Shown here: positions 12,467 through 27,465 of the stretch, one piece after another
Position numbering within the stretch: the first letter of the stretch is position 1
Layout: each line of letters begins with the position of its first letter
From: an uncultured Mycoplasma sp.
GTDB taxonomy: Bacteria; Bacillota_I; Bacilli_A; Mycoplasmatales; Mycoplasmoidaceae
DNA: 36,349 nt
Assembly: GCA_949285105.1 (NCBI GenBank)
Contig: CASDXH010000009.1
Location: forward strand, 1 to 36,349
Direction of reading: 5' to 3'
The notes under the pieces: model-generated
The model's input: the letters and a program-made list of their open reading frames with translations, nothing else
Told to the model about the DNA's origin: nothing
Databases searched by the model: none
Program-made: the position numbers and the translations under genes

Positions 12467-13357
12467 TTATTCATTATTTAAATCTTTAATGGAAGGGGGT
12501 TTTGATTCAGATTTTTGATCATCATTATTTGGCTTAACAGTTTCTATTTGATTTGGATTAGGTTTATCATGGTTTAGTTTAGAATCACTTATTTGGTTTA
12601 CTTTATCATTATCTTCTTTATTTTTAAAACCGTCTCACACAATTTTGATATTTAGCTTTCTTAATACTTTATTAACAAGGTATAAAATATTACCTAATAC
12701 AGAAATTGATATTGTTGATACAAGGTATGGAATATAATTTCCTTTTTCTGGATTATTACCAACCGGAATTTGAATTTGTGAAGGAGATGAAGTACCAGAC
12801 CCTGGTAATTGGATAGTAGTTCATGGAACTCTTTTCTCTGTTACTCTAATTACTTGACTATTCATTATTGGACCTTGAGTTTTAATTAAGTTATTTTCTA
12901 TACCGATTGGAATATTAGAATTATTAAAACCATAAGCCAACATAAAAGAAGAAACAAAAAATAAAATGAAAACAAAGAAGCTTAAATATAACTTTCATTT
13001 AATAACTTTATTATCTTTAATCATTAATATAACTTCAATTGCTAAACTTAAACAAGTAGCAAATCCAAAAAATGATGCTGCAAATGCTATATAAACAGCA
13101 TTTTTATTTGAAAATAATCATTGATTAAAAACATAGTAGTTTGTTCTATCGATAGTTACACTCCCATTGCTTGTTGACACAACAGCATTTCATGATTGGT
13201 TGCAATTTATTAAATAAATTATAGAAGCTGTTAAACCAAGACAAATAAACATAGTTATAAATAACAAAGTAAAGTATTTAATATACTTTAAATACACAGG
13301 AAATAACTTCTTTACTGTATCAAATATTTGACTTGATTTTATTTCGACCTTTTCCAT
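12467..13357 (-). CDS. Four-helix membrane protein with hydrophilic tail
   Basis: A 296-residue hypothetical membrane protein. The start at 13357 is chosen because AGGAAG precedes it; an upstream in-frame ATG at 13387 lacks an SD. Predicted helices: about 26-50 (YFTLLFITMFICLGLTASII), 85-112, 118-142 and 205-225. An external Pro/Ser-rich segment (TTIQLPGSGTSSPSQIQIPVG) lies before the last helix. The C-terminal 55 residues are polar, rich in Asn, Asp, Lys and Pro, and probably cytoplasmic. Several TGA codons are Trp. No family recognised. Confidence 0.8.
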
Positions 13358-13668
13358 AAACTTCCTATAAGAATAATAAGCTAGCAAATTGCCCTATTTA
13401 TGTTTATACACGATTCAGTTGCAAAAATAAATAGTTTTTATTTTTATTTAGCTATTTATTACAAGCAAATTATTGTTTTTATAAGAAAGTTTTAGTATTT
13501 ATTTATGAATTAAAAAAGCACATTGTTAACACATTTATTTTATGTGAAAATGAATATATTTAATTTATCTTGATGTGTATAAACATGCAGACAAAATACT
13601 TTTAAAGCTATACTCGTTAAAATATTAATCAATAAATATTTGAATAGAAACTATCTATATTTTAAATT
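13358..13668. other. AT-rich spacer upstream of four-helix gene
   Basis: No open frame with an SD and no RNA gene seen. A weak minus-strand hairpin CACAT/ATGTG near 13535-13552 is followed by TTAACAATGTGCTTTTTT. A TGTATAAA -10-like word lies near 13409-13416. Confidence 0.4.
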
Positions 13669-13706: not shown

Positions 13707-16277
13707 TTAAAGTTTAACATTTTTTATAGTATCAATAAGTTCTTTATATTCATCCTTTTTTAAGAATTGATTAATTCCATAAACATAGCTATTTGGATGA
13801 TTTTTAACCACAAATTCTTTGAACGTTTTTTGGGTAACAATTATATCAACATCTTTTGGTAAATCTTTTATTGCACAATTTGTAACTTCAATGTCGTTTA
13901 TTCCAAGACTTGTTATCATCTTTTTGATCATACCAGCACCCATAGCTGAAGAACCCATTCCAGCTTCACATGCAAATATGATCTTTTTAGCTTTTTTAAC
14001 AACATTACTTAATTCTTCATTAGTTGAAGCATTATTATCAGAATTTGATTGGTTGATTACATCATTAATATTTTCTTGTTTAGAATTTACATCAATTAAT
14101 TTAACATCGTTTTTAAAGTAAGACTTATTTACTAATTTACCATCTTTTTCAATTTTAATAATTGAATTAATTTGGTTTATTAATTGTTCTTTAAGTTTAT
14201 CTTTTTCGATTTTGTTTTTTACAACATCTGATTCATTTATATTTTTTAAATCTTTAGCATATTGCTTTTTAAGTTCTTTAATTTTTTGTTTATCAGCTTT
14301 TTTCTTTTCTAAATTATTTTCAAATATGATTGTTCTTTTTGAGAATTCAATTTGTTTTTGTTCATAGTTAACTGAATCAATTTCACTTTCTTCTATGCTC
14401 ACTTTAATTCTTTTCGCGTCATAGTAATTGTTCTTATTTATTTTGAATTTTAAAAGATCAATCTTTTTATTGAACTTAAATTGTTCTGTCGAAATTTTTA
14501 GTTTGTAATCTCTTTCTAAGTTTTCAATACTAAAAGTGTCATTTGAATTTAATTTAGAAGCTATATCTTCTTTTCATAAGTTAATTTCATTAATCTTAGC
14601 TTCGTGTTTTTTACTTAGTTCTTCAATTTTTAAATTAAGCTTATTTGATTGAACATCTCTTTTAGCTTTTACTTTAGATAAATCAAATCCATCCTTATTG
14701 TAGAATTTTTCACAGTATTTTTCTTTTCTGTTTTCATCTTTTTCATAAACTTTATAATTTATAGTTTCTATTTTCTTATCTTTATCTTTAATTGGGAAAA
14801 ATTCTTGGTTACCATCTTTTAAGTTTACAATTTCTCATAAGTAGTTATTTTTATCTTTAATGTTTTCATATTCAACATTTTCAATCTTTTTAGTAATGTT
14901 AATATCTTTAATTGAATCAAATTCTTTAGATTTATAAATGTTTGAAACTAATTTCATTTTGAATGGGTTTAAAATAACTCTTTGTCCGTTTCTAATACTT
15001 ACTCATAATAAACTTAATGAAGTTAATACAAATACAATAGCACTAGCTCCAAAGATTGCAATTGTTAGCGCTAAATAGTTTAATGGTTTACCACTATATA
15101 CAGCTAGATAGTTCATAATAACACTACCTGGACTTGGAGTGAATATACCACCAAAATCAAAGATTTGATACATAGCACCAGCAAACACCCCACCAGCCAT
15201 CATGAATAACAAGTTAATTGGTTTCATTAATACAAATGGGTAATAAACTTCGTGAATACCACCTACAAAATGAATTGGGGCTGCAGCTGTTGCTTGTGAT
15301 TTTTGTTCTTTTGTACCAAAACAGATATAAGCCAATAATAATCCTAAACCTTGTCCAGGATTTGGATCAAGGAAGAATAACGGAGAATAACCACTAGTTG
15401 CTACTGCTTGATATCCTAATGGTCCTAAAATACCATGGTTAACAGCATTATTTAAGAATAAGATCTTTTCAAACTCAACAAATATAGGAAGAATGAATAG
15501 TAAACCAGCACTGTTAATTCCTTGAATTATAAAAAAGAACACAACTTGCAACACAGCCATTAATGGTCCAATACCTCAGAAACAAACAAATATTGCTGTA
15601 GTTCCAAATATTCCAAGCGAAAAGTTATTAACTAACATTTCAAAACCTTGTTTAATGTTGTTTTTATAAAGCTTTTCAAAGTTCTTAAATATTCAAGCAA
15701 ATAAAGGTCCTGAAATTAAAGCACCAAGAATCATTGGTGAAGCACCAGTATTTATTAAACTAACATTACCAGTAATTTGTACCATTATGGCATTAAAAGT
15801 TCATTTGTATGTAAGCTCATTAATGTTTTTTATATCAGACTGTAATGATATTTGTGAATATGCAATTACACCAATTACACTAGCAAAACCTACAAGAGCT
15901 CCTCTTCAATCATATATTTGCCTTCCACCTAAAAAGGCAATTATTAAAGGTATTGTGAACTGTATCCCAAGATCAACAACCTTATCCATATTAAATAAAT
16001 ATTTTGAAGAGTCAGCTGCTGTTCATTTGTCTATAGCTATACCATGTTGGTAAGCAATACCGGTTTTAACACCAAGGATTATAGCTGTGAAAAGACCTCA
16101 AGCTATTAATACACCTATCGCCGGAATTACCATACCAGCCATAAAAGAACCAAACTTTCTAACTTTAGCTAAAAATTTTTTTGATGAATCTGATTTATTA
16201 CCCAGTTGCTTTAGTTTACCAGTTAATGGAGTTTTATAAGTTAGCTCATACTGAGTAGGTTTAAAAATAGCTTTCAT
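13707..16277 (-). CDS. mtlA: PTS mannitol-specific EIICB with long insert
   Basis: An 856-residue mannitol transporter. Residues 1-430 are the membrane EIIC domain, with GGIHEVYYPFVLMKP and the start KKFLAKVRKFGSFMAGMVIPAIG as in MtlA. Residues 765-856 are EIIB with the phosphocysteine Cys770 in IIFACEAGMGSSAMGAG. Between them lie about 330 charged residues (Lys, Glu, Asp, Asn, Ile), with heptad-like stretches such as NLEKKKADKQKIKELKKQYA and NKLNLKIEELSKKHEAKIN. The usual MtlA linker is only tens of residues. The frame is continuous; I walked codons across both joints and all interruptions are TGA (Trp). A GTG at 14402 is an internal Val. The ATG is 2 nt past the reductase stop, so translation is coupled. 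EIIA is MtlF at 18127-18570. Confidence 0.93.
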
Positions 16278-16279
16278 AT

Positions 16280-17131
16280 TTAGTTAGTTTTGTATCAGTC
16301 ATCATCTAATGCAAGATTTGCATAAGAGTCACATTCATTATGAGTAGTTGATTTATGAGTGTTAAATTTTAATTCTAAAGTTAGTAAGTCTACATCACTA
16401 ATTTTGATGCTTGTTGCCTTTATATTTTCTCTTATTTCAGATTCAATTGCACTTCTTACAATTGGACAAAATCCTAAGTTATGTGAGTAAGCAATTAATA
16501 ATTGAGCAACAGAACAATTATATTTAGCTGCTAACTGTTTTAAATATTCGCTATTAAAATTTACTTTTGGATTTCCAAGAGCTCTTCAACCTTGCATAGC
16601 AATGTTGTGTTCTTTACAAAAAACCATTCTGTCTCTTCTTATGTATGTAAGACTTGCTTCGTTTTGTACAACTTCAGGATACACACCTGTTTCATTGTAT
16701 AGAATTCTTATCATGTCTGGTTCAAAGTTTGAAACACCAATAACATCAACAAGACCTTTTTTCTTACATTCAATAAGTTCTTTTCATGCTTTAACATTCA
16801 TAGTGTTATCAACATGTGGTCTATGTAGCATGTAACAATCAATCTTAGATATTTTTAATCTTTTTAAAGATTCTCTAAGTTCATATTCAACACCATTTTT
16901 AAAATCAGATGGTCAAATCTTTGATTGTAATGTTGGATAAACAAAAGAAGGATTTTCCATTTTTAATTTTTCTAATGAGTTACCAACAAGAGGTTCTGTA
17001 TTATAAAGCTTTGCAGTATCTATAAAATCATATCCTGATTCAATAGCCCACTTAATAGCATTATCCATATCATTTTGATCAAGGATTTTGTAAGTACCAA
17101 ATCCTATTTTAGCTTTTAGTATATTATTCAT
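16280..17131 (-). CDS. Aldo/keto reductase in the mannitol operon (second copy)
   Basis: A 283-residue AKR-family NAD(P)H-dependent reductase. The tetrad is complete: Asp38 and Tyr43 in DTAKLYNTE, Lys71 in LQSKIW, His103 in MLHRPH; GVSNFEPDMI follows. It ends NLALDDDWYKTN, matching the NxxLxxxWYKT end of the copy at 1123-1998, so both are recent-looking paralogs or relatives. It lies 1 nt after mtlD and 2 nt before mtlA, so it is firmly in the operon. That place suggests a role in polyol or ketose interconversion, but no AKR step is part of the standard mannitol route. Translation is probably coupled, as no SD is evident. Confidence 0.93.
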
Positions 17132-17132
17132 T

Positions 17133-18134
17133 TTAACAACCTTTTTCTTCTATATATTTTTTAGCAATATTTAAAATATGATCAAATGTTTCGTGTTTCT
17201 TATTATTATTTTTTAATCATTGATATATTGGTAAAATTCTCTCATTATCACCAATCTTTTGTTTTGCGTTCCTAGCAACTCTATCAATATCATCTAGTAG
17301 ATATTGGTTCGAAAATCTTTCAACGTTCTTTTTTAAATATTGGTGAATATCTTGCAATTCAAAATTTGTTAAATTTGATATTGCAAGACTCATTTCATCA
17401 ACTAAATTATTTATAGTAGATAAACATTCTTTATCCATTATGGTTTGGTTAATGTATTTCATTTTTCTACTATACCCTATCATTGCAATAGAAAAATGCA
17501 AACCATTAACTCCATAAAATTTCTTATTAAAAAAATCTTGATAATCCCCATTAATTGGTGTTGTATTTTTATTAAACAATCAATTTGTTGAACTTTCATT
17601 CTTCTTGTATCAAACACTATAAAAGTCTTCAACTTTAACATCCAAACTATCTTTACTTTGATCTGGAACCAATCTATCAACAACTACATTAACAAAATCA
17701 AGTTTTGATAAATTATCTTTGTTTTTTTGTATTACTCCATTAAATAAATGTTCTGAAGCTTTAAACCCATTTTCAAAGCATGCAATAACTAGTTTGTTTT
17801 TGTTATCTCTCTTTTGTAAACCAATATTAATGATGTCACAAAGATAGTTAAGGTTATTAATGCCAATTGAAGTTGTTATCATATCAGCTTCTGATATGAT
17901 GTTAATTAATTCATCCTTTTGTTTTAATAAACTTAAACCTTTGCAATTATTAATTTCAATTTCTTTATTTGATGGTAGACAATGAATTTGATATTTTTTT
18001 TCTTTATTTATTTTGTTTATTAATTCGTCTGAAATATCAACAAATAGAATATCAACATTATTTATATAAGCTAATTCTGCAATCAACCCTCTACCAATAT
18101 TACCTGCACCAAAATGGACAACTTTATTATTCAT
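17133..18134 (-). CDS. mtlD: Mannitol-1-phosphate 5-dehydrogenase
   Basis: A 333-residue NAD-dependent enzyme that oxidises mannitol-1-phosphate to fructose-6-phosphate. VVHFGAGNIGRGLI at the N-terminus is the Rossmann nucleotide site, VVVDRLVP the mid-domain motif, and GVNGLHFSIAMIGY matches the catalytic NGxH region. It is about 50 residues shorter than the usual ~380. Start taken at 18134, the second of two adjacent ATGs (18137 also possible); it overlaps mtlF by 8 nt, so it is coupled. TGA codons at three or more places are Trp, joining pieces that look separate under the standard code. Confidence 0.93.
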
Positions 18135-18570
18135 CATGCATTGCCAATCATTCAAGTACTTTATTAGGATTTAAATCAGTGCCATAGTAAAATTTCTTAA
18201 CTTCATCTTCATCTGAAAAAGCAACACCTATATTTCCAATTACATCCATTGTTTTATCTCCAGATAAAGCAAGACCTAAAACAACTTTAACTTCATTACC
18301 ATCTCAATCAATTGGATTTTTTAAAACCAAAATACACATAGCGTCTTTTTTAATTAAATGCTTTGTTTCAACAGTACCATGAGCTATAGCAATAAAGTTG
18401 CCTATTGCAACACTTGCATTCTTATCTCTTTCAATCATTGAATTGAGATACTTATCTTCTATAGCATCTTGTTTTTTTAAACATTCAAACACTTTATTAA
18501 ATGCTTCATTTTTATTTTTAACATCAACATTAATTAAAATGTTTTCTGTATTTAAATATTTTTTGATCAT
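18127..18570 (-). CDS. mtlF: PTS mannitol-specific EIIA
   Basis: A 147-residue cytosolic EIIA. The phosphohistidine is His64 in IAIAHGTVETK, followed by LVLKNPIDWDG and VVLGLALSGD as in MtlF. A TGA at 18304 is Trp, so the protein continues to LEWLAMHDE and a TAA at 18127. AAGGAG stands before the ATG at 18570. It is first in the mtlF-mtlD-AKR-mtlA operon and passes phosphate from HPr to the EIIB part of MtlA. Confidence 0.95.
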
Positions 18571-19290: not shown

Positions 19291-20340
19291 TTATTTAGTA
19301 AAAGAATTCTGGAAATTTGAATTTCTATTTCTCTCTTCAATACCAACTATTTTACCATCTTGAATTCTAATAATTTTAGTCGCTATAGAAACTAAACTAT
19401 TATTGTGTGTAACCATTACGATTGTTGTATTAAATTCTTTATTAACTTTTAAAAATAAATCGATTATATTCTTTGATGTTTCATCATCCAATGCTCCAGT
19501 GGGTTCATCACAAAGCATTATTTCAGGTTGCTTTAAAATTGCTCTAGCAATAGCAACTCTTTGCTTTTGACCACCAGATAATTCATGCGGAAATTTATTT
19601 TTAATTTTTTCTATACCAACTATATTTATCACTTCATCAATATCAACTGTTCTTTTATTTTTTGGAACAAGATTTTGTCCTAATTTGATATTATCTCATA
19701 CAGTTGATATTGGTACTAAACCATATCTTTGATAAATATATGCAATGTGGTTTCTTCTAAATTCAGTTAATTCTTTATCATTAAGTTTGTTTATAACTTT
19801 ATCCTTAATGAAAACATCACCGCCAGTTGGATGTTCAATACCTGCAATAACGTTAAGTAATGTAGTTTTACCAGAACCACTTGGTCCTAATATAATAACT
19901 ATTTCACCTTGATAAATTTTTAAATTAATATTTTGTAAAATATCAGCTTTAAAAGATGAAGTTTTAATAGTCTTAGAAATATTTCTACATTCTATTTCAA
20001 CATTACTATTTCCAGTACTATTGTTTTGATTGTTAATATCTGGATTTGGATTATTTACATAAGGTTGGTTATGCTGTGGTTCATTATTATAATGGTTTGG
20101 ATTGGCAACATTTTGATGATTTGGAATATTTGGTTCTTTATTTTGATTAACTGGTGTATTAACTTTAGCTCTTGGATTTCTAATCTTTTTTTGTGGGGAT
20201 GGATTATTGTTGTTATTAATAAAGGTATTTATTTCTTTATTAACTGTAGTTTGGTTAATATTTTTTGATTTAAATTTGTATTGATCATTAACATAAGGGT
20301 TAATGATTTTTTTATTTTGTGTCTTTGTCTTATTTTTCAT
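19291..20340 (-). CDS. ABC transporter ATPase with Asn-rich N-terminal tail
   Basis: A 349-residue ATPase of the LolD/MacB/FtsE type. The ABC domain starts near residue 114: Walker A GPSGSGKT (152-159), Q-loop YIYQRYG, signature LSGGQKQR, Walker B IMLCDEPTGALD and H-loop VMVTHN are all intact. Residues 1-112 are low complexity, dominated by Asn, Pro, Gln and Lys (for example INNNNNPSPQ). TGA at 19696-19698 is Trp. No SD precedes the ATG at 20340, which lies 21 nt past the BI-1-like gene. There is no permease gene directly beside it; it may serve the permease at 22579-27465 or one elsewhere. Confidence 0.92.
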
Positions 20341-21261: not shown

Positions 21262-22569
21262 TTATTCTCAAGAAATTTCAGCAACAGTTTTTTTGTTATT
21301 GTTTATATAGTCTTCAATAATTCTTCCACTATCAACTTTAATAATGTGGTCTCCAAGTTCTAAGATTTTTTCATTGTGAGTAACTATAACAATTGTCGTT
21401 TTAAACTTTTGATTAATGTTGCAAAATATATTCATTATTTGTTTTGTTGCATCAATATGGATAGCCCCTGTTGGTTCATCACCATACAAGATGTCAGGGT
21501 TTCTCACTAAAGCTCTACAGATAGCAACTCTTTGAGCTTGTCCCCCAGAAAGATTGCTAGCTTTTTTATATTTGTGTTGGAAAAGATCAACAGATTTAAG
21601 TAGTTCATCAATATTAAGAAGTTTCTTTTTATCTGGTTGTAAACTAGTAGCTAATTTAATATTGTCATAAACTGACAAATCAGTTAAAAGACCATATTGT
21701 TGGAAAATATAACCAACATGCTGACTTCTAAGTTTTGTTAGTTGTGATTCATTTAAAGAGATTGTATTTTTATCAAACATATAACATGTACCATTGCTTG
21801 GTCTATCAAGCGCAGAAATTAAAGTTAGCAATGTTGTTTTACCAGAACCACTTGGACCATATATAACAACAAACTCACCTTTTTTAATTTTAAGACTAAC
21901 GTCTTTAAGAATGTGTTCACAACTATACCCATTGGTCATAAGTTTGTTAACATTTTCTAAAACAATGATGTCAGAATTTTTATCATAGTTTTTTGGTTTC
22001 TTATTTTTTTCATTCTTATGAGGTTTATTAAGTGATTTAATTTTTCTAATCTGTGCTCTTAATTCTTTTTTTATTTTTTTTTCTTCTATTTTTTCTTCTT
22101 TAGTTTTTTTATCCTTCTTTTCCTTAGCTGGTTTTTCTTTCTTTTCTTTTTTATCTTCGGGTTTACTTGCTTGTTTCTCGGCTTGTTTTTCTATAGGTTG
22201 TTGTACAGGTTTTTCTGCAGGTTTTTGATTAATATCTAAAGAATGGTTAATAGTAACTAGATTAGGTTCATTTTTAGTTTGTTCATTAGTTACTGGAGTT
22301 ACAAGTTCTTTTTTAACAGCATCATTTTCTACAGTTGAAGATTTTGAATCTTTTTCATTATTAACATCTGAATTTTTTTTTGTTGAAGCTTTTTTATCAG
22401 CACCTTTTTTAGAAGCAGATTTTGTTTCCTTCTTGTCTTTTTTTTCAGATTCTTTTTTGGCACTAGATTTTTTCTTTGGATCAAAAGTTAAACCTTTATC
22501 AGCATAATCTTCTAAAAAAGTATTGATCTTTTTAACTGTCATTTTCTTTTCTTTACTTTTCTTTTCCAT
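21262..22569 (-). CDS. ABC transporter ATPase with Lys-rich N-terminal tail
   Basis: A 435-residue LolD/MacB-type ATPase. Residues 1-199 are a highly charged Lys/Glu/Ser extension with AKKESEKKDKKETK-like runs. The ABC domain follows: Walker A GPSGSGKT (238-245), Q-loop YIFQQYG, signature LSGGQAQR, Walker B ILYGDEPTGA and H-loop VIVTHN. The D-loop is odd: AIH instead of ALD. The TGA at 21268 is Trp, so it ends ISWE with TAA at 21262. AGGAAG SD overlaps the permease stop, so the two are translationally linked and surely partners. The tail may bind nucleic acid, membrane or the permease; not known. Confidence 0.93.
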
Positions 22570-22578
22570 ATTAACTTC

Positions 22579-25500
22579 CTATTGATTAATAACTTTCTTT
22601 AAATTCATTTTCTTTAATAATACAACTGTAAACACAAAATTAATAATCATAATACCAACTATTGATGCCACACCATAGATATAAGGTAATCAACTAATAG
22701 CTGGTGATATATAGATTGATGATAAACCATACAATGCGAATTGAAGAACATATATCATAGCTATCATTAATGCAAAACCTATCAATAAAGCTAATATCAT
22801 AACTGGGAAATAAGTGAACACTATACTTAAAATATTTTCTCTATCTGAATATCCAAGCGTTTTCAATACTGCAATCATATTCTTAAATTCATTCATCATT
22901 ATTGAAGTCATAACTAAAATCATAATAACAATTAGTGGAACAAAAATAGACATTCCAATTGTTTCAACAATATTAACACTTGAAAATAAACTTGAATATA
23001 TTTGGTATTGGCTTATAAAACTATCAATTGTTGATATTGAAACTTTTGTAGGATTATTACCATATATTCTAATTGCATAATCTGCTAAATTCTTAGCATC
23101 ATTTGCAACAGAATTACCCAATTGCATTCTTAGTGATTCCCTATCTTTTAAAAGATTAGTATTGTGTGTTACAAGTTTATCTGTAAAGACAAATTTAAGT
23201 TCTGTGTTGCCACTAGGAATACTTTGGTCTCTTGTGTTCATTGTCCAAATATTTTTAAAGTTAACACGTCAAATATCAACAAAAGTATTTTGATCTAAAT
23301 TGATAATATTAGGTCAAATACCCCATTGTGCATAGAAGCTAATATTTTTAGAAAGATATACAGGATTTTCTTTTTCTGTGAATACACCATTAAATGGAAC
23401 ATAACCATTTTTTTCTAGAGTTGTCTGATCAGCATATTTATTTTGTTGTTTATCTGTGCTTGTAACTTCTGTTTTTAAAATGATGTTTCCACCATTGCTT
23501 TGTTCAGTTTTATTGAAACCTAACCCAAGGATCTTGTTAGCGTTGTCTTGGGATATATAGAATTCTTCACCAAATGAAGTTGAAGCAATACCTGCAACCG
23601 TTAATGTGTATTCAGAATTCCCATATCCATCTGGGCTTGGCTGAGTTTGAATACCTTGTGAATCTAGAACTTTTCTACTAAATCTAAAGTAAGAGTTATT
23701 AACATTAATTTTTATTTTATCTCCAACTTTTAGCTTGTAGTGATAAGCTGCACCATTATTAATTATCATAGGATATTCATATTTTGAAGTAGTTAGTAAA
23801 TCAGATATCTCTCTTTCTTTTTGATCTTTTAAAGTTACAAAAGAAGAATTGTTTTTAATACCAACGATGTTAATATTTTCTTCTTTATTTCTTAATATTG
23901 TATTTGCATTAATATAAGAATAAGTTTCTGTACTTTCTTTATCTTCATAAGGAATTATTCCATATGAAATCTTAACATCTTTATTACTTAATTCTTCATC
24001 CCCATAAACACAACCAATGAAAGATAAAAATTCATCTGTAAATCTAATTTGAGTATAATTTAAGTTTATGTCAACAACAGTTTTTGGGTTAACACTATAA
24101 AGTTTAGTGTCTTGATCATATAGGATAAAGTTATTCTTTTTTTGTAATTCTGAAAGCATTGTATTTTCAGGATTTTGAGCAGCTTCATAAACATCTTTTA
24201 AAAAGATTTGTGATTGGGATTCAGATCTTGCAATAATTTCTGGTGGTAAAAAAGCTTTAACAAATTCCCATGGGTTTATTTGGAAACCAAAGTTTATTTC
24301 AAAATCCAATAATCATTTAGCAAATACAGCACTTTCTCCAAAGAATATATCATTTTTAACAGCAAAATTTGCTTGATAAGAAGGAAGAAGAATATTACCA
24401 AAGTAAAGTGGTTCTCCATTTTCAATCTTTTGAGTTCCATCTTTATTTAAAACTTTTAAATCCTCTAGTTTATATGGAGTATCATAACCTCTTGTTTGAT
24501 AGAATTTTTCTTGTTTACCATTATGCATTATAGTACCAGGATATAAAGGATAAATACCATTATCTACATCTGTAAAACCAAGGTTAGAGTATTTTTGCAT
24601 TTTGTACAACCCACTCTGTTCTGTTGGTGTTACTAAATCAAAACTATAAGTATAATTTTTATTAACTTTGGTTAGTGTTGTTGATTGATCAAATTTTTGA
24701 GGAAGTGAAATACCTGAAGTTACAAAAGCTAATCCAAAAGAACAAAGCATTGTGTAGAAGATAAATCTATAGAAGTTACTAAATGATAAGTTCAATCTAA
24801 ATTTAAATAGTGGTTGAATACCTTGAGAACCGTTTTTAATCATTGTTAAAACTTTACTTACTTTAGTTTCAACATTACTTGATATCAATAAGTTAATTGG
24901 TTTTTTAAATGTCAATTTAAGAATAACTCAAGTAAAGATTAAAAAAACAACAAATACAGAAAATGCTCCACCAAAGAAACCTATGATAGAAAACTTTAAA
25001 AAATCTAAAGGAACATATCAGAAAGGAGATATAGCTGAATAGAAAGTACCTTGTAAAAATAAAGCCCCAATGTATCCACCAAACCCTGCAAGTAATGCTA
25101 CTATTAATCCAAATAATGATAAAGCCATTGCAATTTTTAATGTAGAAAAACCATTTGCTTTAACAATAGCTAGCTGAACCAAGTTTTTAGAAATATAACT
25201 TCTTATCAATAAATAAGAAAGATATAAACCAAGAACAATTAAAACTATAATAACAGCAATTGCAACAATTGATATATATAAAACTATTGAATCTGGCAAA
25301 TAAATTCTAAAAGTTAATATATTTTTATTATTAGAAAAATCATTTGTTTTATAAACTAAATCACCAGAATAATCTTTATTAAAATTGTTTTTATATTCTT
25401 TATTTAGTTCATTGATGTAACCATCAGTTACACGTTCTTTTGTAATTCCTGAAAAATATTTATTTTGGAAGGTAGCAGGACTTGTGGAAAGAATTGAATT

Positions 25501-27465
25501 ATAACCTTGTTGATTTGTAAATAATACAAATTCAGTTCTTGGATTAATAATTAAATTCTCTAAAGAAGTAGATGGATAAAGTAGATCAGGACTTATACCT
25601 GTCCCAATAATTACATACTTCTGGGTATTTATTGTAACTGTATATTTACTATCAAGTATAGATAATCATTCTTTCACATAATTACTAAAGTTTTTAATTT
25701 TAGAATTTATTTCTTCATCTGTTAGTGAAAAAAAATTATCTCAGGAGTTTAATAATTCATTCCATCTAGTTATTAGATCATTTCATTGGTTAACGGGAAT
25801 ATATTCTTTATTATTTACATCTAAGAATTTATCTGGAACAACTGTTGCAAAACCATAAGGAGTATAAACACTTAAGATAACATCAATTGCAGTTTCTGCA
25901 ATTGCAACTCCATCTTCAAAACTAAAGCGTAAATCTATCTTTTGTTTATTAGTTGAAACAAATTTACTTAAATCTATATCTGGTTGATAGATAGCAAAAA
26001 TTACTCTATATTTAGAGTTATCAATTGGTCTTCCAGCTTCCAAGTCTTTTAATATATCTACTATATATTCTTTTATGTATGGTTTTACTTCAAAACCAGC
26101 TTCTGCTGTTGATGAAAGCAGCAACATCAATAAGTTTTTAAGATATGGCTTATTATCAGATGAGTAGAAAGGCTTAGTTGCTTCATCAGCAATTTTTAAA
26201 TAAGTATCACTATCAACTAATCTATTACCACTACTATAAACAATTTTATTTATTTCAGAGTTCTCTTTATTTGATACTAAGTATTTAAAAGAAGAATCAT
26301 TATCAATAATAGTATAAGAAGACTCAAACTGAGTTAGTATGTTTTTTTGTTTTAAAAAGCTATCTGCACTATTGCTTACAGCAGCCTGAAGAAATTCAGA
26401 TAATTGATCAGATTTTTGTTCAGCTATATTTTGAAGTCAAAGTTTAACTAAACCTTCTTTTGTAGTTGGTGGACCATTTTCTACCCCAGGGTTTTCAGTT
26501 CCAACATTTTTTCCTTCTTTCTTGTTGATTTTTGATTCAACTCAATCATTCTTAATAACAACTTCAACATTTAACAAACTATTTTTTTGTTGTTCTGGTA
26601 AAGATTCAATGATATTTTTTTCAGCTGGAGAAAGTGAGTCAATGTTTAAAGTTAAAGTATAAACATTCTCACTTTTTTTCATTGTGTTATCTAATAACGC
26701 ATTATATAAATCAGCATAGTAAGTAACATCTGTAATATTTAAATTTGTTGATGATGTTGGTAACTGAGTAACACTATTTGTAAATAAAGTATGTGGTATA
26801 GTAGTTGCTGGAGTTGCAGAATCTGTATCATACTTATTAAACATAGCTTTATTTGCAACATAGTTACCTTGTAGTATTGTAAAATATTCATCAACCTTAC
26901 CAGTTTCAGAATTAAAGTAACCTGATAAAAAAGGTTTTTGATTTTCATCATAACTAAATAATAAATTTGATGGGTTAAAGTATGTACTCATTTTATAACC
27001 AATACCATGTCATTGCTTATGGTCTGACATGTTTATATCAAGCGGCACATATTTTCCTTCTTTATCAATTGACACACCTGTAGATTTTAAGATCCCAGGT
27101 TTTCTACTTCATCTATCAACATTTAAATTTGCACTTGTAAAGTCTTTAGGTTCATAAGGAAAGATTACATTATTTTCACTATATTGATATTTAGAAACCA
27201 ATATTTCTTTTGTTTTAGGTGAGGTTATTTCTGCTTCACTAGGCAAAGTATATTCAGGTTTAGGCAAGCCATAATTTTGTTCAATAGTAACGTTTGCGCT
27301 GTTACCATACTTGTTAACATTATCAATACTATTTGTAATATTTGTGTTTAGATACAATAAACTAAATGAACTTAATATAATACAAAAAGTAATGAATATC
27401 AGCGCAAAAATTAATAACATTGAGCTCTTAAATGATTTTAAAACTTGCTTTATTAACTGAAACAT
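22579..27465 (-). CDS. Giant FtsX/MacB-type ABC permease, 1628 aa
   Basis: One continuous frame of 1628 codons once TGA is Trp; seven blocks that look separate share one frame. An N-terminal helix (about 14-38, MLLIFALIFITFCIILSSF) anchors a roughly 680-residue external domain. A membrane bundle lies near 723-850 and about 898-920, with NLVQLAIVKANGFSTLKIAM as in FtsX domains. A second ~560-residue external domain follows, and a C-terminal FtsX domain with helices near 1500-1625 has EFKNMIAVLKTLGYSDREN, the coupling-helix motif. Two FtsX domains with large ectodomains mark a MacB/LolCE-like mechanotransmission or lipoprotein/peptide export system. SD AAGGT before the ATG at 27465. Partner ATPase at 21262-22569. 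Confidence 0.93.

Follow-up and report, generated by a model that had tools for sequence, protein, structure and literature searches.

A mycoplasma mannitol-type EIICB permease with an inserted domain between EIIC and EIIB

It has long been asked of PTS permeases how a short linker lets EIIB travel between EIIA and the EIIC active site. In the mannitol EIICB and EIICBA permeases of the MtlA type, represented by Escherichia coli MtlA and the families TIGR00851 and NF011663, EIIC precedes EIIB, a GGIHE motif and a phosphocysteine are present, the EIIB fold is that of PDB entries 1vkr and 1vrv, and the gene lies in an operon with mtlD and EIIA. All of these features recur in a locus that we analyzed within a 36,349-nucleotide stretch of DNA from an uncultured Mycoplasma sp. 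(contig CASDXH010000009.1; the whole stretch is referred to here as the window). The locus differs from known MtlA systems in having a linker of the insert type, with 212 to 333 residues instead of 33 to 58, in including an aldo-keto reductase (AKR) gene in the operon, in encoding EIIA as a separate gene, and in its match to TIGR00851 (2e-76), which at 257.2 bits lies below the curated cut-off of 468.4.

The mtlA gene corresponds to the ORF at 13707-16277 on the minus strand. It is open under genetic code 4, with nine TGA codons read as Trp, and encodes 856 residues with a calculated mass of 96.9 kDa, close to the roughly 98 kDa given in a preliminary description of this DNA. The EIIC transport domain (residues 49-362; 15192..16133, minus strand; Pfam PTS_EIIC, 1.1e-13) carries the GGIHE motif at residue 339. 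The EIIB domain (residues 764-849; 13731..13988, minus strand; Pfam PTS_IIB at 765-849, 5.8e-12) carries the phosphocysteine, Cys770, and both phosphotransfer motifs are intact. By sequence, the EIIB part matches the IIB domain of E. coli MtlA (PDB 1vkr, 4.2e-18), and by fold it matches PDB 1vrv (Foldseek, TM 0.86). Mannitol-type MtlA was the best-matching family among the NCBIfam models, although the score against NF011663 (320 bits) was also below its curated cut-off of 589; because the protein is divergent and its scores are sub-cut-off, we filed it as mannitol-type rather than as a member of a curated model. A single chain holds mannitol-type EIIC and EIIB, with the phosphocysteine and GGIHE, and the gene is in an operon with mtlD and EIIA; the short linker that is usual for, but does not define, such proteins is replaced by 339 residues. 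The product is thus one mannitol-type EIICB permease with an added domain, at about residues 430 to 762 (13992..14990, minus strand), between the Pfam EIIC and EIIB matches; the interval named previously, 13989-14990, corresponds to residues 430-763. Judging from the neighboring genes and the family, mannitol is the presumed substrate.

The length of 339 residues was taken between positions equivalent to 424 and 764. By the same measure, the linker of 48 other EIICB homologs drawn from 320 genomes of the order comprised 33 to 58 residues (median, 44.5), so that the linker, previously put at about ten times the usual length, is indeed far longer, but by a factor of about 7.6. A separate ORF-based measure (425 to 759) gave 212 to 333 residues in six insert-type proteins and 25 to 49 in thirty other proteins, and no intermediate lengths were seen among the EIICB proteins measured. 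A paralog with a 37-residue linker (L020) is encoded in the window's own genome, and therefore both kinds of permease coexist in one cell. This paralog (G000:C8:17494-19896; L072 2405-4897), an open frame of 831 residues, belongs to the same family; its linker (about 37 to 45 residues) lacks the insert, and it has instead a hydrophobic C-terminal extension of approximately 240 residues without a Pfam match. It adjoins tuf and is followed by a 6-phosphogluconate dehydrogenase-like gene. The insert-type mtlA of Mycoplasma imitans is followed directly, on its downstream side, by a short-linker EIICB gene paired with a 6-phosphogluconate dehydrogenase-like gene (L005 8803-12201). A natural permease in which a predicted folded domain replaces the linker, together with a short-linker paralog in the same cell, lends itself to comparative work on linker length and subunit exchange.

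Seven insert-type copies were found: six complete loci, including the window, and one incomplete locus (G078). The same architecture is present in G022, which belongs to the same genus and is assembled as a single contig (85-86% identity), and in M. imitans ATCC 51306 (NZ_JADI01000007.1, locus L005; 63-64% identity), with which G080 is the same genome or near-identical. Shorter versions of the insert occur in G003, G071, and G073, with open frames of 702 to 778 residues. The continuous EIIC-insert-EIIB frame reported earlier is therefore borne out by one open ORF in the window and by five other complete orthologs. The preliminary description had also allowed for a sequencing error that fuses two genes, which the identical architecture in independent assemblies, one of them a single contig, excludes, and for separate EIIC and insert-EIIB products through an internal start. 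There is indeed an in-frame GTG at 14402 (V626), and in G078 an insert-plus-EIIB frame survives without EIIC. However, the two nearest orthologs have GTT and GTA at the V626 codon, the GTG is not preceded by a Shine-Dalgarno-like sequence, and the three genomes compared have no in-frame start within the insert in common. We consider two products, or two genes joined by error, hardly credible. The G078 frame (L010 1492-2871) stands behind a tmRNA-like gene, and the NCAI motif of its EIIB reads NWAI; since it has no ATG start and both EIIC and AKR are missing, it is probably a decaying remnant of a deletion.

In a maximum-likelihood tree of EIIC plus EIIB calculated without the insert, the six insert-type proteins formed one clade with an ultrafast bootstrap value of 100. 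The simplest reading of this tree is that the insert was gained once in this permease lineage. Its present distribution is patchy, covering 7 of 95 genomes and 6 of 11 genera of the family, which includes M. imitans (NCBI placement, Mycoplasmoidaceae), and would have arisen by loss or transfer.

The insert is rich in Lys (19.8%), Asn (12.9%), Ile (10.8%), and Glu (10.2%), as the preliminary description had stated, and its best 19-residue Kyte-Doolittle mean is 0.02; it is therefore charged, soluble, and without a membrane segment, again as described. Between PTS_EIIC (49-362) and PTS_IIB (765-849), Pfam found nothing on the full protein. Searched alone, the insert gave nothing convincing against Pfam (best E value, 0.011, for one member only) or PHROG, matched nothing in the PDB by sequence, and its model retrieved no Foldseek structure at an E value of 0.001 or below. 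The profile search of the insert alone against mycoplasma proteomes, proposed earlier as a check, yielded convincing matches in only seven genomes, all of the window's family and all at MtlA-type loci; among 395 genomes of the class, there was none besides the window's own. A mobile domain used elsewhere was rejected on the same search of 320 genomes of the order, in which the single exception was a weak match in another family (L066; G169:C27:95913-96134; E value, 4.2e-4 over 73 positions) that is probably a charged helix of similar composition. In the literature searched, mostly without subscription papers, we found no paper describing the insert, in agreement with the earlier statement that no function had been described for it. 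The permease is of a known kind; for the inserted domain, the searched databases and literature disclosed no precedent. These searches also bear on the proposal that the insert anchors a sugar transporter to the cytoskeleton or attachment organelle. Only its charged helical segment and the fact that the host is a mycoplasma would suit such an anchor, but the profile has no convincing similarity to other proteins of the order and most related mycoplasmas lack the insert, which makes this role very improbable.

We modeled the insert (residues 430-762) with AlphaFold from an alignment of two sequences (mean pLDDT, 59.9; pTM, 0.44). The model predicts, with low to moderate confidence, a beta-rich module at residues 465-527 (14697..14885, minus strand) with five strands (465-472, 480-486, 491-496, 502-514, and 517-527), and alignments show this module to be common to all seven copies. 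It is followed by a predicted helical hairpin at 533-615 (14433..14681, minus strand; helices 533-575 and 581-615), which reached a pLDDT of 81 to 96 in this run and is restricted to the long-insert branch, being absent in L009, L011, and L012; long helical blocks are confined to the copies of the window, G022, M. imitans, and G078. A predicted sixth strand at 620-630 (14388..14420, minus strand) lies beside the best conserved stretch of the insert, 626-668, which is 86% identical to G022. A second predicted hairpin at 635-717 (14127..14375, minus strand; helices 635-681 and 687-717; pLDDT, about 45 to 66) leads into a probably flexible tail to EIIB at 718-762 (13992..14126, minus strand), where a pLDDT of about 30 to 40 indicates no confident structure. 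A second run that included EIIB reproduced the strands and the hairpin, while the sixth strand did not form. On our reading of these models, in which strand confidence is low, the insert may be built on a beta module that is interrupted between strands 5 and 6 by a helical hairpin, an arrangement that fits the conservation pattern. An internal repeat among the strands ("I..I.Y", about 496-512 versus 626-642) was not significant (hhalign E value, 0.03; probability, 1.7%).

The insert had been called coiled-coil-like with heptad-like runs. In shuffle tests, heptad periodicity of helix 533-575 was clear in two orthologs (5/2000 and 11/2000 shuffles) and marginal in the window (171/2000); it was not detected in the other three of the four predicted helices. 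The heptad-like runs therefore hold for one helix, and sustained periodicity of the kind expected over a coiled-coil protein was not found. The coiled-coil label applies at most to the lineage-specific helical part, since the N-terminal third (465-527) is predicted as beta strand and the part conserved across six genera is beta-rich; predicted strands and a heptad signal confined to one helix rule out a coiled coil over the whole insert.

In the comparison of the window with G022, the insert had a dN/dS of 0.20, as against 0.047 in EIIC and 0.027 in EIIB; values across the sub-regions of the insert ranged from 0.14 to 0.29, and helical hairpin 2 (635-717) evolves fastest. The comparison with M. 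imitans was given less weight because synonymous sites are near saturation. The insert is thus under purifying selection, with weaker constraint than its flanks. The first approximately 100 residues are common to all seven copies, with invariant G, R, P, N, E, G, Y, and Y, and a later stretch contains I633 and Y638, again invariant in 7/7 copies. Over the same alignment columns, the four long copies measure 346, 346, 345, and 345 residues despite 43 to 75% identity. These figures weigh on the possibility that the insert is a lineage-specific expansion under weak constraint, tolerated without a specific role, like many mycoplasma tails and insertions. Its dN/dS is about four to seven times that of EIIC and EIIB, copies range from 212 to 333 residues in length, and its helical parts come and go; Mycoplasma pneumoniae ribosomal proteins likewise carry sequence extensions, largely of unknown function (PMC9534751). 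The two cases share the character of lineage-specific, partly helical additions to conserved proteins, but the ribosomal extensions are terminal and mostly predicted to be disordered, whereas the insert is internal, between two catalytic domains, and has a predicted fold. Tolerated expansion also sits poorly with the dN/dS range found in every sub-region between the two closest genomes, with the near-constant length of the four long copies, which differ by no more than one residue, and with the residues of the beta part that do not vary among six genera. We regard it as unlikely, albeit the strongest competitor. The insert provides a case of an added domain kept by reduced genomes.

A spacer or oligomerization role is most likely among the functions considered, and we give an even chance to the specific reading that the insert is a structured cytoplasmic arm, serving as a spacer or for oligomerization, for EIIB. 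A new soluble domain would have entered the EIIC-EIIB junction in one Mycoplasmoidaceae-type lineage; this domain may hold EIIB off the membrane while keeping it tethered and may set its orientation relative to the EIIC dimer, whether in cis or toward the partner subunit, and the helical hairpins may make homotypic contacts. The arm is favored by the intact motifs, the orthologs, the single clade, selection, the kept length, and two agreeing AlphaFold runs, together with the superposition of about 80 model residues on 5izs, a structure of designed homo-oligomeric helical hairpins (TMt, 0.91; rmsd, 1.1; E value, about 1). It is weakened by the insert pTM of 0.44 and by the weak heptad signal in three of the four helices. 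Helical parts are absent in three of the six complete orthologs, and dimerization through helices is therefore not a role common to all; as the 48 short-linker homologs demonstrate, such permeases in general do not require the arm.

The operon of the window has the order EIIA-mtlD-AKR-mtlA, all on the minus strand. EIIA (18127..18570) is of the fructose/mannitol type (mtlF; NCBIfam) and matches the EIIA part of the MtlA model NF011663; mtlD (17133..18155), for mannitol-1-phosphate 5-dehydrogenase, scores just below the NCBIfam NF002651 cut-off (6.5e-75); and AKR (16280..17131), immediately upstream of mtlA, matches NCBIfam DkgA below cut-off (5.7e-42) and is nearest by sequence to 2,5-diketogluconate reductases and prostaglandin F synthases. 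AKR is directly upstream of mtlA in 6/6 complete insert-type loci, and none was detected within the 1.5-kb flanks of the short-linker loci examined. The pair is constant while EIIA and mtlD change place (AKR-mtlA-EIIA-mtlD in G071 and G003) or are missing (G073). Insert-type loci thus link a mannitol permease to an aldo-keto reductase, and this constancy is what would be expected if the insert were a docking platform for enzymes of the same operon, above all AKR, with product or cofactor passed on at the membrane. Sharing an operon does not prove physical contact, however, and because all six loci descend from one ancestor, the association may be a single event; we consider docking rather doubtful. 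A more elaborate version, in which the insert would be a new protein-binding domain tethering AKR, and perhaps mtlD, to MtlA, so that the permease acts as the scaffold of a membrane-bound complex for sugar-alcohol uptake and oxidation or reduction, is less probable still.

Downstream of mtlA, the window encodes a 306-residue membrane protein (12467-13387) without a Pfam or NCBIfam match, which shows no similarity to the C-terminal extension of the short-linker paralog. In G073, the region upstream of the AKR-mtlA pair (L070 3548-4915) encodes a 456-residue protein that has a weak match of EIIB type and may be a PTS-controlled activator. The window also contains two ABC ATPases with long N-terminal extensions (21262-22569 and 19291-20340), in which the ATPase domain begins at residues 221 and 135, respectively, and the former adjoins a 1628-residue FtsX-like permease (22579-27465).
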